The position numbers and the translations under genes are program-made. A DNA stretch of 54,686 bases from a virus, in IMG/VR virus record IMGVR_UViG_3300020469_000060, positions 1 to 54,686 of that record, one strand, 5' to 3'. Below are positions 2,314 through 53,824 of the stretch, one piece after another. How positions within the stretch are numbered: position 1 is the first letter of the stretch; each line of letters starts with the position of its first letter. The notes below the pieces were generated by a model, which did no database searches, was not told the origin of the DNA, and saw only the letters and a program-made list of their open reading frames with translations.

Positions 2314-2739
2314 TTACTTAGATTCTTTAGGATCTTTATTAGAATTTTTATATATTTTCTCTAGAACTTCTTTTGCATCTCTTACACTAGAGAGATATCC
2401 CATCTTTCTATCAATTTTAGATGAACCGTTGTTGTTATCTTTAGTACTACCGGTTCTAACATATTCTTGATACATCATTATAATTTCTATATCAGATGAT
2501 TCTGATAGAGTAAGAACATCATCCAATCTAATTATAAACATATCTTCAGATGTAGTCTTTAACCATGGTTCTATTTTATAACCAACTACATTATCTGTTT
2601 TAGATTTAATTTCTTTTACATTAATTGGATTAGAAACTATTAGCATAGTTCTATCTTGCTCTTCTGAGGCTGCTACTTTAGCAAATATTTCTTCTCCACT
2701 TCTAAGTTTAATAGTTGCGTAAAAATCTTCTTCTATCAT
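2314..2739 (-). CDS. conserved hypothetical, Sm-like beta-rich protein downstream of uvsW
   Basis: A 141-aa protein. Residues 1-80 alternate short strands (FYATIKLRSGEEIFAKV, then GYKIEPWLKTT, then MFIIRLDDVLTLSES), which suggests a small Sm/LSM-type barrel. The C-terminal 40 residues are polar and charged (DRKMGYLSSVRDAKEVLEKIY). I recall similar proteins beside uvsW in other marine T4-like phages, but no function is known. The ATG at 2739 overlaps the uvsW stop (ATGA) and has a strong GGAGGA element 5 bases upstream. RNA binding is a guess from the fold-like pattern only. A roughly 110-base gap holding the gp55 promoter follows. Confidence 0.8.
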   Translation of the reverse strand: MIEEDFYATIKLRSGEEIFAKVAASEEQDRTMLIVSNPINVKEIKSKTDNVVGYKIEPWLKTTSEDMFIIRLDDVLTLSESSDIEIIMMYQEYVRTGSTKDNNNGSSKIDRKMGYLSSVRDAKEVLEKIYKNSNKDPKESK

Positions 2740-4217
2740 ATTCCTCCGTTGAGTTGTATGGTAACAATTTCATAATTAAACTTCTCCTCATTGTATTGTT
2801 TAATTCGTTCTATAAAATGATTAAGTGTGTAGTTTCTTCTTGTGGTAGTTGAACTGTCGTCAGCAATATCGTATAAAGTTGCTTTTAATTTGTTCTTTCC
2901 TTTTCTAAGCACCCGTCCAATGCTTTGAAGGTTTCTGATTCTGGATTTGCTAGGTGAGGCGAAGATAACATTATGGAGATTTTTAATATTGATACCTGTA
3001 GAAAAAGTTCCATAAGAAGCAACAATAATGGCATTGTTTTCTCTTTCAGTTATTTCTCTTACTAACTCTCTTTCTGTGGTATCAACTCCACCGTGGACAA
3101 AAAATACTTTTTGGTTATCTTTCTTTTGATTATTTATCTTGTCGAAAAGTACTTGACCATGTGCTTCTACTCTTGCAAATAACACAAGAGTATTGCCTTT
3201 CATATCTAATGCAAGATTGGTGATAAAGTTATTTCTTTGTTGATGAGTAATTAAATACTGAACTTCATCTTCAAATACATCAAATTTACGAGGAGGATGC
3301 TTAAGAACAATACACTGAATATCTAATTGGGATAAATGTCCTTGCCTCATCAACTCATCTGTTCTGGTCACTTTGTATGAAGGACCAAAGACTCCCTCTA
3401 ACACCCACTTATGCGTCTGTGTGCCGTCTAAAGTTCCAGTGAATCCAAATCTATACTTTGCATGATGAAGTTTGGTCATGATGTTAATTAGAGACTTAGA
3501 CTTGAATAAGTGTGCCTCATCACCAATTACCACATCATATTCTTCAAACCAAGATCTTTCTAACTTATAGATAGATTGCCAGGTAGTAATGGTTATAGGA
3601 ACATTACTATACTTTTCTCGACCAGAATAGATACGGTGACAATATGAATCAGCATCCCAACCATAGTCAAGAAAATCCTTGTGCATCTGCTCTACAAGAG
3701 ATGTCGTTGGAACAACTAAAAGAACTTTTTTCCCTTGGTTCTCGTAGTATCTTACAAGAGAATAAATCATCAAAGATTTGCCAGAAGCAGTGGGGCTTAT
3801 CAATAGCTTTCTATTGTGTTTTAAAGCACCGTATACTCCCTCAATTTGATACTTCCTGGGAGTATGAGAACAAATGGAATGCATATAATCCTTGACACCT
3901 TCATATGAGATCTCCTCATTCTCTTCATATGGGGTGCCATAAAATTTATTGTCCTCAAACGTATAAGAATAATCGTATTGCTTACAGAAACTGACAATTT
4001 TATCTAGCAGACCGACGTAGATTTGCTTGGAACGCATATCAAAGAGATGTATCTCTCCATTCCAATTTCTACCACGATACTGCGGCATAAATTTTGCATT
4101 AGGAACCTCAAACTTAAAGTGGTCTCTAAGTTCATATTCAATATGAGGTTCAGTATTAATTTTTAAAAATACTTCGTTGGACTTAGATATAACAAGATTT
4201 GCTGACGTATCGATCAC
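2736..4217 (-). CDS. uvsW: UvsW DNA/RNA helicase
   Basis: A 493-aa superfamily-2 helicase. T4 UvsW reverses forks, promotes branch migration and unwinds R-loops at origins, shutting off origin-dependent replication late in infection. The N-terminal DNA-binding domain (residues 1-110) contains FMPQYRGRNWNGEIHLFD, like T4 RFNPRFRYGNWDGRIRLLD. Walker A is PTASGKS at 142-148, Walker B is DEAH at 233-236, and motif VI is SIGRVLRKG near 430. The ending EKFNYEIVTIQL resembles the T4 C-terminus. The start is GTG at 4217; no in-frame ATG lies upstream. A late-type motif lies 21 bases upstream, in line with late expression of uvsW in T4. Confidence 0.95.
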   Translation of the reverse strand: MIDTSANLVISKSNEVFLKINTEPHIEYELRDHFKFEVPNAKFMPQYRGRNWNGEIHLFDMRSKQIYVGLLDKIVSFCKQYDYSYTFEDNKFYGTPYEENEEISYEGVKDYMHSICSHTPRKYQIEGVYGALKHNRKLLISPTASGKSLMIYSLVRYYENQGKKVLLVVPTTSLVEQMHKDFLDYGWDADSYCHRIYSGREKYSNVPITITTWQSIYKLERSWFEEYDVVIGDEAHLFKSKSLINIMTKLHHAKYRFGFTGTLDGTQTHKWVLEGVFGPSYKVTRTDELMRQGHLSQLDIQCIVLKHPPRKFDVFEDEVQYLITHQQRNNFITNLALDMKGNTLVLFARVEAHGQVLFDKINNQKKDNQKVFFVHGGVDTTERELVREITERENNAIIVASYGTFSTGINIKNLHNVIFASPSKSRIRNLQSIGRVLRKGKNKLKATLYDIADDSSTTTRRNYTLNHFIERIKQYNEEKFNYEIVTIQLNGGI

Positions 4218-19055: not shown

Positions 19056-19481
19056 TTAATTATTTATGTTTTGGTCTGCTTTTTTGATCATTTTTTGTAA
19101 CTCTGCAGTAGAACCAACAAATAATGCATTGGTAACATTTGTTGGTCCCTTTTGGGTATTAGTCTCTTCTACATCCTTTAACTTTTTTTGAAGCTCCATC
19201 AGTTTATCTGTAGCATCAGAAACACTTTTAATTAACTGACCTGCCACTTCATATGCTCTTGGTTGTTCAGTTTCTTGTGCCAGTTCAAGGATACCATTAA
19301 TTGCTTCCTGTCCTTTTTCAATTATTGAATATAAGTTACCACGAGTATACTCATAGTCTTTTTGAATATCTTGTGGAGAAAATGATTTAGGTTTGACTGG
19401 TTCGACTTCTTTCTTTTCGGCAGGCATTAATTCTCCTGCTATACTAAACGCTTCATCTAAACCATTAAATTTATCAGTCAT
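19056..19481 (-). CDS. 16: gp16 terminase small subunit
   Basis: A 141-aa mostly helical protein (T4 gp16 is 164 aa). It would recognise or hold DNA for gp17 and stimulate its ATPase. Residues 34-105 form the coiled-coil core (YEYTRGNLYSIIEKGQEAINGILELA, VAGQLIKSVSDATDKLMELQKKL), the pattern of T4-like small terminases, and the C-terminal QKGPTNVTNALFVGSTAEL is typical of cyanophage versions. The ATG at 19481 comes 6 bases after the gp15 stop, in the expected 15-16 order. Gene 17 is separated from it by two extra genes. Confidence 0.9.
   Translation of the reverse strand: MTDKFNGLDEAFSIAGELMPAEKKEVEPVKPKSFSPQDIQKDYEYTRGNLYSIIEKGQEAINGILELAQETEQPRAYEVAGQLIKSVSDATDKLMELQKKLKDVEETNTQKGPTNVTNALFVGSTAELQKMIKKADQNINN
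19061..19068 (-). promoter_or_regulatory. late promoter motif of the fiber-like gene
   Basis: CATAAATA on the minus strand, inside the last codons of gene 16 and 47 bases before the ATG at 19013, the longest leader among the late motifs here. Confidence 0.6.
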
Positions 19482-39400: not shown

Positions 39401-42400
39401 AATATATTTTCATCAATTAATCCTCTAGATTTTGAAGTAACTCCAGTAATTTTTTCGTTTGCAATAAATTCATCAGTAGAGTTAATTTTGAGAATTGAAT
39501 ATTCTTCGTCCCAATCTTCAACTATAGCTGTTTTGTTGCCAGATTTAATTATTTCATCAACAATAAATTTATTTTGTTTAATATCTACAGTAAAAATTGG
39601 GAAATCTCTTTGAGGAAGTAATCTTGGAGTAGATGCAATTTTATCAAATTCAATAACACTCAATCCAGTCCCTAATTGATCTCCAATACTAAACGTAACA
39701 ACTCCTGCTGCTCCACCAATGTTAGGATCAACCGCAGTAATGGTGAATAAATCATAATTATATTCATAACTGTTAAACCCTCGCTCAGAAGAACCAATAC
39801 CAGGATTACATCCCTCAACCATCAGTTTTTCACCAACAACAAATGGATAGTAATCTCCAGTAGAATATTCTGTTTTTATAGTTGCTGCAACTGTTCTTGT
39901 TGTTGGATCATATACCATACCATTACTGAGAGGACCGACATCAACTGGAACACCAGCACCAGATTTAATCGGATAAATCTTTGGTAGAACATTATTCATT
40001 CCATAAGTATTCTTAAGAATCTCTACTTTAGATTCTTTACTATTAAATCTAAGATCAATATCTTCTACAATTTTACCAGTAATTCCATCAACAACAATTA
40101 AATTTTTAGCGTCAAGATAACCTCTACCAAGAGAAGAAATTCCAATAGATTCAATAGAAGTAAATGGAGTAATACGTAAAGATTGTGAGTAGAAAAATAT
40201 TGGATTAAGTGTTTGATCCGATGGGAAATCATATCCATAATCAGTAATTTCGATATCTTCAATTTTTCCAATATCAGAACTTTGCAGTTCTAATACGGAT
40301 CCAAAACCATTTGTAGTTGTAACTGTAGTTAATCCAGGAAGAACCTTATAGTTTTCACCAGTATTCAGCATTTCTATTTCAGTGATTGATCCATCTGTAT
40401 GAGTACAATCAGTTATATACGATAATGATGCGTTATCAGAAGTATATAAATCATTTTCAGGAACTTTACTCAAACTATAAGTAAAGCTGGTAGCAGTAGA
40501 AACTGTTACTTTATGCGAACCTGAGTACGCACTATCCATAATTGTAATGGAACCTGCGCCAGATACAGATTTATCAAGATATACACCTTTTTTAGATTCT
40601 TGTAGTGGAACTCCAGGAGTATATTTGGGAAGTAAATTATAATAAAGTTCTTTTGGTGTGGTATCATCAACATTTAAAATTATCGTTGAATCTTGACCAA
40701 CTCTTCCAGTTTTTATTACTTTAAATTCAGTATCTGTTGAATTTTTTGTCCAGGGTTTTGTAAATGTATTATCTTCATAAAAATCTAAATCAAATGCAGG
40801 ATAGTCATTTTGAAAATAAGTATACTTTAAAGATTCATCTGATAAGTCAAATTTAACTATACTATATCCCTCAACATCAATTTTAGGATTAACTGGACTT
40901 AAAGTTCCCGTAGTGGTTGCTATACCAACAACAGTAATCGGTTGCTCTAGTTGAGAATTATATAAGGTTTCCGAAAGTTTAAAATTATCCTTATCAATTT
41001 TGACTGAATAATATGCAGTATTATGATTAAATGCCGCTAGTGCTTTATCACTAGTATGGATAAGTTTATCTCCCGTCGAGAAACCATGGTCTTCAATGTT
41101 AACAATTCCGGTAATTGTATCAATACCAAGAGGTTCAAACGTTTTTGGATTTATTATAATATTTCTATTATAATCATCATATTTTACAACTACAGTTTTT
41201 TCAATCTTAGGTTTAATGTCAAATACAATTCTATGCCCAGAACTTAATCCATGAGTAGTTGCAGTACTAACTGTTACTTTATTACTAACTACATTTGCTG
41301 TAATTTTTGGATACTGAGTAGTAAAACTATGATATGAACTATTTCCAGCGCCGACAAAATATACTAGTCCAATATTATTGGTTGACGCTGCAACTCCCAC
41401 AAATGTCCCTGTAGAACCAATACCAACTTTAACTGTAGAAATTCCAATAAAATCTTTATTAAATTTTGCAACATAGTAACTTCTGTCATCAATAAAATCA
41501 GATCCAAAACCAATAGATGTAGTAGTATCTTCATAACTAATTGAAACTGCATCACTTCGATTTTTATTATATTTGACAATATCACCTGTTTGAAGATTGT
41601 GATCTTTTATATAAATTTTTTGCGGTAAAACAAATACATTTGTTGCTCCAGTACCAGGATTTGCAAAACTTATAGTAACTCCTAAACCTGGATTTGAAAT
41701 ACTAGGAGATAATCCTACAGATTCAACAGGATTAAAATAAATTTCTCTATTTAATTTAAATTTAAAAGAATTGTCATAATCAGAATTAAACAAAAATTTA
41801 TTTTGTAAAATTGTTGCTGCAGTTCCTACAAGGTGAATTGGTGAAGATGTTCCATCAATACCTCTGAGAATTCTAAGTCTACCTGATTGTTTTTCGACAT
41901 TAAGAACCTTAACCTTTTCATCAGATATTTGAAGAATATCATTTTCTCTAATTTTATCAAAATTGGTATTGTTAACATACAGATATGCAGGAGAACCACT
42001 ATTGCCAATAATATCTAAAGCATAAGTCGTTGTTCCAAGACCAACAAGAGTACATTCTGTTGCAGGAACAGTTACTGTATAACTTCCTTTATATGGAGAT
42101 TTTACTGTTGAAAAATTTGAAAGGGTTACTATATCTTTATCACTATAGTCATGGGGACTTGTTCCAATAGCAATAAACTCGCCTTTTTTTGTAGATGGAT
42201 AAAGATCTATATTATTATATACTGTACTACATGCAATACTTGATATCTTTTTGCCTTCAATAAAAGATACTCTAGCAGCAATACCAGATCCTCCAGATTT
42301 AGTTTGATCAAAAACTAATCTATCGTTTACTTTATATAAATCTCCACCACTTAATATTTTTACAGAATCAACCTTTCCTCTACGAACTGTATTTGTAGTT

Positions 42401-51654: not shown

Positions 51655-51805
51655 ATCGACCTCACAGGCACTTTTTACATATCAAAAAAATTTTTAAGTC
51701 AACTTGATATCACTCTCGCGTTTTGTCACATCTGTAGGTTAGGGTAGTTACGCTTTTTTATATACGCCCCCCGCGCCCCATAAAACGCTGTTATTTCACA
51801 CTGTC

Positions 51806-52173: not shown

Positions 52174-52350
52174 TCACCAGGTATCGGGTGTACTTAGCGA
52201 CTCAATATATGCCTCGCAATGTTCTGACCCTTCCAAACCGAAGAGTTTATCCCAGTCAATATCGTGCGGATTAAAATCACCCAGAGCATCAATCTCTAAG
52301 GTGATGCGATACTTACTCTTCGTTGCCTGCTGATAGATTGTGGGAGACAT
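52174..52350 (-). CDS. 58-aa acidic hypothetical
   Basis: ATG at 52350, beginning MSPTIYQQATKSKYRITLEI and ending CEAYIESLSTPDTW (TGA at 52174-52176). The N-terminal half resembles an amphipathic strand pair, and the second half is acidic. It sits behind a near-consensus host promoter, and repeat copy A follows its stop. No domain recognised; it belongs to the general class of short cyanophage early proteins. Confidence 0.68.
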   Translation of the reverse strand: MSPTIYQQATKSKYRITLEIDALGDFNPHDIDWDKLFGLEGSEHCEAYIESLSTPDTW

Positions 52351-52375
52351 TGGAGAACCTCTGTGATACCTTGTT

Positions 52376-52404
52376 ATTATACTTGGAGATTGGAAATATG
52401 TCTA
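52376..52404 (-). promoter_or_regulatory. sigma-70 promoter of the 58-aa gene
   Basis: TAGACA (52399-52404), 17-bp spacer, perfect TATAAT (52376-52381) on the minus strand; start expected near 52369. Confidence 0.75.
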
Positions 52405-52442
52405 GCGACCTAAGTCCTATTTAGAAACTGTCACGGCGGTTC

Positions 52443-52471
52443 TTGACTTTTGGGCGGAGTGATGATAGACT
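52443..52471 (+). promoter_or_regulatory. possible rightward sigma-70-like promoter
   Basis: TTGACT (52443-52448), 17-bp spacer, TAGACT (52466-52471). It is one of very few plus-strand signals in the window and reads into inverted repeats with no coding region. Confidence 0.35.
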
Positions 52472-52483
52472 GCGGGCCAAGAT

Positions 52484-52521
52484 GACTATAAATTCACACA
52501 TTAAAAGAGACCTTTATAGTC
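52484..52521. repeat. 9-bp inverted repeat
   Basis: GACTATAAA (52484-52492) and TTTATAGTC (52513-52521) are perfectly complementary across 20 bases. A second short hairpin (AAGACC ... GGTCTT) follows at about 52530-52550. Confidence 0.6.
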
Positions 52522-52546
52522 AATAAGATAAGACCTTTATGAGGGT

Positions 52547-52570
52547 CTTTAGAGGGTCTTCAGAGTTACT
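52547..52570 (-). repeat. degenerate copy of the intergenic repeat
   Basis: The plus-strand text CTTTAGAGGGTCTTCAGAG then TTACT matches the repeat core CTTTAGAGGCTTCAGTTACT with two short insertions. It may be a decayed fifth copy or a chance match. Confidence 0.4.
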
Positions 52571-52602
52571 TAGGAGATGCTTCTGAGTATACTTAAAGAG
52601 GT

Positions 52603-52648
52603 GTTTTCCACAGTAATCAACACAATTGTGGAAAACATTGTGGAAAAC
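52603..52648. promoter_or_regulatory. cluster of three DnaA-box-like sites
   Basis: TTTTCCACA at 52604-52612 (plus) and its complement TGTGGAAAA at 52627-52635 and 52639-52647. This 9-mer is the form described for cyanobacterial oriC. The outer pair forms a perfect 10-bp inverted repeat, and box centres are spaced 23 and 12 bp, near whole helical turns. I noticed no other exact copy in the window. Confidence 0.6.
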
Positions 52649-52806
52649 GATAAACAACGCAAATATATTTAAAATAACATTTTTAATAGAAAAACACCTT
52701 GATTTTGTATATATTCGATGAAAAAAGGTGTGATTTGGGATATATCGGTGGTCTTACACATATCAGGGAGGACACCACAACCAATCCCCTCAGATGCCAT
52801 CTTCTT

Positions 52807-52836
52807 AGTATAACATAGGCAACATACTTACGTCAA
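52807..52836 (-). promoter_or_regulatory. sigma-70 promoter firing into the AT-rich tract
   Basis: TTGACG (52831-52836), 18-bp spacer, TATACT (52807-52812) on the minus strand. The expected start is near 52800. No gene lies within 450 bases downstream, apart from an unconvincing 43-codon frame. Confidence 0.6.
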
Positions 52837-52846
52837 TCATACTGTA

Positions 52847-52987
52847 TCAAACGCGAGTAGGATTACCTTGATAATCTACCATCTCTCCCTTGTTATCTTC
52901 ATCAGCAATCACATCCAGAATAGAAAGGATTTCATTTCCGTTGTTACCTTGCTTAAGGAGTTCGATTGCAGTTTGTTGGTTGAACAT
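52847..52987 (-). CDS. 46-aa hypothetical
   Basis: ATG at 52987, beginning MFNQQTAIELLKQGNNGNEI, then LSILDVIADEDN, ending YQGNPTRV. The IELLKQGNxGxEILxILDxI pattern is one I recall from short cyanophage proteins. The leader before the ATG has no G for about 40 bases and no Shine-Dalgarno, like the leaders of other genes in this cluster. Function unknown. Confidence 0.7.
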   Translation of the reverse strand: MFNQQTAIELLKQGNNGNEILSILDVIADEDNKGEMVDYQGNPTRV

Positions 52988-53283: not shown

Positions 53284-53496
53284 TTAAAATGCGTAAGTTT
53301 GATTGATTGCGTCAGACTTAAATCGTCGGCACAGTTTAAACAAGAGTTTTAAGTCGTCTGTGATTACATATCGGAATGAGGATGATTCGATAATGAAGTG
53401 ATCATCTTCCAACCATATTTGTGGAAGTTGTTTCTTGTAGATTGGAACATTAAGTAACTGAGTGTTCATTGTAGTATCAGGCAAAGACATAACCAT
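53284..53496 (-). CDS. 70-aa hypothetical
   Basis: It ends FKLCRRFKSDAINQTYAF. Three in-frame ATGs are possible: 53496, 53490 and 53469. The first two overlap the preceding gene (by 20 and 14 bases), and the third starts 7 bases after its stop. None has a clear ribosome site, so the start is uncertain. The core QIWLEDDHFIIESSSFRYVIT is a likely beta meander. Function unknown. Confidence 0.65.
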   Translation of the reverse strand: MVMSLPDTTMNTQLLNVPIYKKQLPQIWLEDDHFIIESSSFRYVITDDLKLLFKLCRRFKSDAINQTYAF

Positions 53497-53824
53497 TAGT
53501 GAATGATTCAGTTTTAAATACTTTTTCAGTACCCATTTGACCGACGAACTTTCTTACAAACCACTGATAATTCTTTTGGAAAACTCCTTCTCCAGTGATA
53601 CAAAACTCATCACAAAGTGCATTCAGTCTGCTCTTTGTTGTAACTGACTGATAACCACCATCAAAGATTGTCATAGAGTCATCATCTATCTCTGCAATCT
53701 TATTGCCGTGGAGACGTACAATAGAAACGTTTTCTTCCTCATTAAAGTGAACAGTTGTGTTTGCATTTGACCAGTTTTGATTGTTGTGAATAGCAGCAAT
53801 CATTTGGGATTCGATTTTTCTCAT
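53477..53824 (-). CDS. 115-aa conserved hypothetical
   Basis: MRKIESQMIAAIHNNQNWSNANTTVHF..., with HGNKIAEIDDDSMTIFDGGYQSVTTKSRLNAL in the middle and NYQWFVRKF near the end. This pattern (short N-terminal helix, HGNxIA, GGyxSxTTKSRLNA) is one I recognise from a widespread phage family without a known function. It is first in a three-gene unit and sits just downstream of repeat copy B. Its leader is C/A-rich. Confidence 0.8.
   Translation of the reverse strand: MRKIESQMIAAIHNNQNWSNANTTVHFNEEENVSIVRLHGNKIAEIDDDSMTIFDGGYQSVTTKSRLNALCDEFCITGEGVFQKNYQWFVRKFVGQMGTEKVFKTESFTNGYVFA

Follow-up and report, generated by a model that had tools for sequence, protein, structure and literature searches.

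T4-like cyanophages are among the most abundant viruses of the ocean. We know of no T4-like phage that uses the bacterial initiator DnaA, and those phage and plasmid origins that do use the DnaA of their host, such as oriR of P1, pair it with a Rep protein of their own and with iterons. In T4, R-loops are removed by UvsW. The minimal T4 origins oriF and oriG consist of a promoter and an AT-rich tract, and a review of T4 replication mentions neither a use of DnaA nor DnaA boxes (PMC3016281). The MotA system is absent from cyanomyoviruses (PMC2984593). In most cyanobacteria, including Synechococcus elongatus and Anabaena, the DnaA box has the consensus TTTTCCACA (PMC4674748). On where and how T4-like cyanophages start their replication, the sole statement that we found is a single predicted theta origin in Syn9, reported in a review (PMC2984593).

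Here, we describe an element in which a cluster of TTTTCCACA sites is combined with a promoter and an AT-rich tract. Judged from its sequence, it is probably, with a rough probability of 60%, the replication origin, or a main one, of Kyanoviridae phages, and would recruit the DnaA of the host. A DnaA-box origin seems not to have been reported for T4-like cyanophages before, and a search of the open literature turned up no mention of DnaA boxes in cyanophages. If a lytic phage equipped with a replisome still recruits the host initiator, as the element suggests, phage replication could be coupled to the cell-cycle state of the host, which is light-dependent in cyanobacteria. It also provides one precise, family-wide candidate site beside gp90, which is testable in cultured phages.

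The locus and its features

The window, by which we mean the whole stretch of DNA analysed, is a 54,686-bp IMG/VR fragment of a T4-like cyanophage whose hosts are ocean cyanobacteria. Its closest isolates are Bellamy, S-SM2 and SynMITS9220M01, of the family Kyanoviridae. At its right end, it contains a small-gene region that adjoins gp25/gp6 and a ferredoxin-like gene. The features discussed in the following are:

2736-4217 (-): UvsW-like helicase, which could clear R-loops; top PDB match 2oca (T4 UvsW), E 1.5e-85
52174-52350 (-): conserved 58-aa gene on the left flank of the element; homologue of SSM2_088 of S-SM2, the sequences compared by reading
52351-52846 (no strand): gene-free gap containing the entire element; flanking small genes translated, no ORF of at least 60 aa within
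52376-52404 (-): promoter of the leftward small gene, divergent; TAGACA-17-TATAAT, 11/12 match
52443-52471 (+): conserved promoter, TTGACT-17-TAGACT, aimed at the boxes; sigma-70-type, opposed to all neighbouring genes
52472-52507 (+): conserved leader with which the inferred transcript begins (AGATGAC and ACATTAAA); AGATnAC and ACATT(A/T) kept in relatives
52604-52612 (+): putative DnaA box 1, exact TTTTCCACA; identical in the relative L080 (89% identity)
52627-52635 (-): putative DnaA box 2, exact TTTTCCACA; faces box 1 at 23 bp
52639-52647 (-): putative DnaA box 3, exact TTTTCCACA; tandem to box 2 at 12 bp
52648-52735 (no strand): AT-rich tract, candidate DNA-unwinding element; 77.8% A+T in 52655-52735
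52807-52836 (-): promoter-like site, TTGACG-18-TATACT, 10/12; not conserved and not part of the element
52847-52987 (-): 46-aa gene on the right flank of the element; translated
53477-53824 (-): gp90-like gene (phrog_554, T4-GC 637); marker of synteny on which the comparison is anchored

The neighbours of the element are small hypothetical genes, and neither dnaA nor dnaN adjoins it. The two small conserved genes beside the gap, of 58 and 46 aa, escape a 60-aa ORF cut-off. No rep_origin feature is present in the annotated stretches of complete relatives that were read, and no known RNA family was found at the element, the single match lying far under its threshold.

Comparison with described origins

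The locus shares features with several types of origin. As in oriF and oriG of T4, a promoter reads into an AT-rich tract (52443-52471, + strand, and 52655-52735, both conserved), and UvsW is among the T4-type genes of the phage; unlike oriF and oriG, which have MotA-dependent middle promoters, it has a sigma-70-type -35, and while T4 has several origins, there is one conserved locus here. T4 oriE likewise combines an early-type promoter with repeated sequences resembling binding sites, but these are 12-nt iterons whose ligand is unknown, whereas the repeats described here are the host's DnaA box. With the chromosomal oriC of cyanobacteria, the element has in common a cluster of several TTTTCCACA boxes, three in 44 bp, adjoining AT-rich DNA. 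Unlike oriC, it has no dnaA or dnaN nearby, it features a conserved promoter reading through the boxes, and the DnaA-trio, an unwinding module beside the boxes, is not detectable: it is not enriched in the 40 box clusters described below, with 4 cases versus 7.3 in shuffles. Finally, the locus resembles origins of the P1 oriR type in being part of a foreign replicon with host DnaA boxes beside AT-rich DNA, but none of those belongs to a lytic phage of the T4 type that encodes a complete replisome. Because one defining feature of each is missing, we class the element neither as a bacterial oriC nor as a T4 oriF/oriG origin.

The boxes keep their place beside gp90

An earlier note, made from the sequence of the window, had described three exact 9-mers within 44 bp, spaced 23 and 12 bp. 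A recount confirms this description, with the same spacings from start to start, and there is no fourth exact TTTTCCACA anywhere in the 54,686-bp record. The bare count of three is unremarkable and too weak alone, with 1.15 copies expected in the window and 14 of 100 shuffles reaching three; what is remarkable is the clustering and the conservation of the boxes. In the relative L080, which is about 89% identical here, not one base differs in the block that opens with box 1 and extends to where the AT-rich tract begins, while the flanks differ by about 10%. When single-stranded, the DNA of the facing pair, boxes 1 and 2, folds into a hairpin (z -3.3).

As three copies per window are not rare by themselves, one might suspect a chance cluster of 9-mers within an AT-rich gap, but the synteny and enrichment around gp90 refute this explanation and leave it a negligible probability. 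This comparison was blind to the motif: it was anchored at gp90 (phrog_554) in 80 IMG/VR loci with flanks of up to 10 kb, with 656 kb of loci around the gp22/capsid-scaffold gene as a control. All but 3-5 of the 106 exact copies of TTTTCCACA sit between -1.0 and +2.5 kb from gp90, and the scaffold control loci contain none, compared to 2 to 24 copies of rearranged control words. After deduplication to 66 loci, no other 9-mer flanking gp90 is as widely shared as TTTTCCACA, which is found in 39 of these loci and is 73-fold enriched, with 83 copies beside gp90 versus 3 in 450 kb of far flank. At least two boxes are present in 24 of the 51 fully covered loci, and none in 18.

The 22 complete genomes with gp90 give the same picture. 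Of their 98 boxes, 51 lie within 2.5 kb of gp90, versus about 2.9 expected (2.85), and every one of the 23 box pairs less than 60 bp apart is found within this distance, none elsewhere. Such a tight pair near gp90 is present in 15 of the 22 genomes, including those of Syn9, S-PM2, Syn19, Syn1, S-RIM2, S-RIM8, S-RIM12, S-ShM2, S-CAM8, S-SM2, S-CREM1 and ACG-2014d, as well as the Prochlorococcus phages P-SSM7 and P-TIM68. The array near gp90 is located at 52565-52597 in Syn9, 19231-19264 in S-PM2 and 41126-41384 in S-RIM8. No boxes were found near gp90 in Bellamy, SynMITS9220M01, S-RSM4, P-TIM40, P-RSM4 and the non-Kyanoviridae phage S-SKS1, and P-HM1, P-HM2, P-SSM2 and P-SSM4 have neither a gp90 match nor box pairs. 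The single theta origin predicted for Syn9 fits one conserved locus. The boxes are far more clustered here than elsewhere and occupy the same syntenic place across Kyanoviridae genera. These are two of the points on which the earlier note had made its reading depend, and both support the core of its proposal, namely that DnaA boxes of the cyanobacterial type and an adjoining AT-rich tract form an origin.

Host DnaA as the likely ligand

Going by the motif, host DnaA would be the obvious ligand of the boxes. A DnaA C-terminal (DNA-binding) domain is encoded in none of 8 complete genomes of relative phages, which makes the DnaA of the host the natural ligand. It is rather improbable that the sites bind a different protein, such as a phage or host regulator, and match the DnaA box by convergence, a scenario in which the locus could still be an origin. 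It would be in line with the missing DnaA-trio signal and with box-less relatives that have other inverted repeats here, so that the binding sites look exchangeable; however, it is the exact host consensus TTTTCCACA that dominates, while other TTWTNCACA variants beside gp90 are at most 6-fold enriched.

The boxes could also act as a decoy that titrates host DnaA and thereby halts host initiation, like datA in Escherichia coli. Consensus boxes on multi-copy phage DNA, in a phage without a DnaA of its own, would be suited to this purpose, but there are few of them per genome, and these are clustered. Moreover, a decoy would need no fixed genomic address, no fixed spacing, no adjoining AT-rich tract and no conserved promoter, and we consider this role improbable as well.

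Promoters and direction of transcription

The architecture of the element was compared in 40 non-redundant box clusters. The conservation of the promoter rests on this comparison; the multiple alignment of relatives is informative over the promoter and leader only. A rightward site of at least 9/12, aimed at the boxes from their left side, is present in 33 of the 40 clusters, whereas a promoter of this quality aimed at them from the right side is found in just 3. In the window, the former corresponds to 52443-52471 (+), which reads across the boxes and on into the AT-rich tract. Across 8 aligned relatives, TTGAC and TGATAGA are invariant at this promoter, and the conserved string continues beyond it: TTGAC-n-TGATAGAnT is followed by AGATnAC and then by ACATTAAA. 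The promoter word GGGTTGACA is specific to the gp90 flank, with 17 loci compared to 0 in the far flank (66 deduplicated loci). Promoter-like sites as such number 11 in the region, versus 7 in shuffles (sd 2.8). One of them, 52807-52836 (-), had been taken for the promoter of the element in the earlier note; the site exists, with a 10/12 match, but given the scarcity of right-side promoters we reject it in this role, which belongs to the conserved 52443-52471 (+).

In 10 clusters, including that of S-SM2, a terminator of the leftward genes ends just ahead of the AT-rich tract, and a rightward terminator is found in 3, a pattern by which leftward transcription would be excluded from the tract and rightward transcription admitted. 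In the window, no clear terminator precedes the tract. Four relatives (L257, L258, L284, L301) have iteron-like repeats of GACATTTAA-type units between promoter and boxes.

DnaA is generally known as a transcription factor in bacteria. Host DnaA, or the box array, might control the divergent promoter pair without any role in replication, for example by switching the leftward early operon or by blocking the rightward transcript. Indeed, divergent promoters are found to the left of the array, with a leftward site of at least 9/12 pointing away from the boxes in 26 of the 40 clusters, next to the 33 with a rightward one. However, most boxes are situated 40-180 bp downstream from the -10 of the rightward promoter, beside AT-rich DNA, and not in operator positions, and the gap contains no rightward gene of at least 60 aa. 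We therefore regard pure transcription control as unlikely.

The AT-rich tract

The AT-rich tract that the earlier note saw adjoining the boxes is real, with an A+T content of 77.8% in 52655-52735 versus 64.8% across the window, but it is not extreme and only moderately unstable: at 1.9 sd below the mean, its melting energy over 80 bp does not place it among the window's 12 least stable sites. ATAAACAACGCAnATAnATTTAAAAnAAC..TTTTTAATA within the tract is common to the window, S-SM2 (L004) and L302. In some clades, e.g. S-CAM8 and S-RIM12, a short AT-rich stretch is located between promoter and boxes, not behind the boxes.

Box architecture and box-less relatives

The spacings of the boxes are fixed. 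Most common, with 15 cases in the 40 clusters and also present in the window, is a facing pair 23 bp apart; others are tandem at 42, 21, 12 or 52 bp, of which 21, 42 and 52 bp are near whole helical turns. In a scan of genome contigs, the facing arrangement was present in many bacteria, with no cyanobacterial host oriC among the matches listed. In three relatives (L256, L265, L300), TTATCCACA, an E. coli-type box, lies halfway along the 42 bp from one TTTTCCACA to the next, which results in a phasing of about 21 bp. Two separate box clusters are found near gp90 in L418 (ACG-2014d), L009 (S-CREM1) and L010 (S-ShM2), and some genomes may thus possess paired arrays.

Some Kyanoviridae lack boxes at this place, including the close relatives L319 and L321, so DnaA cannot be indispensable family-wide. 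With an identity to the window of about 82% over this stretch, these two retain the promoter and the AT-rich tract. In box-less L288 and L005 (Bellamy), other inverted repeats, e.g. GGATACTATCC and GAGAACGTTCTC in L288, lie at the box position between promoter and AT-rich tract; they are possible alternative initiator sites. Since promoter and tract persist in L319 and L321, and L288 and Bellamy carry other inverted repeats, the core may consist of promoter and tract, with the box array as an exchangeable module. A tentative extension of this idea, which we put forward as a possibility, is that Kyanoviridae have a hybrid origin, in which a T4-like transcription (R-loop) core is joined by a slotted cassette of initiator-binding sites, host DnaA boxes in most lineages and other inverted repeats in others, such that the host licensing factor is exchanged.

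A possible course of initiation

If the element is an origin that recruits host DnaA, T4-like transcription into the AT-rich tract would, on the best reading, be its second ingredient. By analogy with oriF and oriG, whose anatomy of a promoter and downstream AT-rich DNA is present, this transcription may involve a T4-style R-loop. The predicted transcript would begin near 52478 (+), and a hybrid would be expected over 52610-52740. The earlier note was correct that UvsW is encoded in the window, but as a general T4-like gene it is no specific evidence for an R-loop origin. Early in infection, host RNA polymerase would transcribe rightward into the tract, while host DnaA, the sole DnaA available, would oligomerise on the boxes. 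Together, they might open the tract, through transcriptional activation and/or an R-loop that supplies the primer, and the T4-type replisome could then load there. In this process, DnaA might load the helicase, or merely bend, open or hold the DNA. At later stages, R-loops would be cleared by UvsW, and replication would become recombination-dependent.

The points against the origin reading are the box-less lineages, the non-extreme AT-rich tract, the lack of DnaA-trio enrichment, the fact that T4 itself is not described as a user of DnaA, and the GC skew. The skew, suggested as a check in the earlier note, gives no clear origin signal: after detrending, its cumulative maxima are 8-12 kb away from the locus, and the third-position skew shifts near 55-60 kb. 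As this third-position change coincides with the boundary between early and structural genes, the skew is uninformative.

Apart from the element, a second conserved non-coding word, TGTAGGTTAGGG, is located at 51733-51744 (+) in the window and present in 28-32 of the 66 gp90 loci. In gene direction, it comes after a TATAAAAA-like stretch, and it may belong to a late promoter or a 5' leader.
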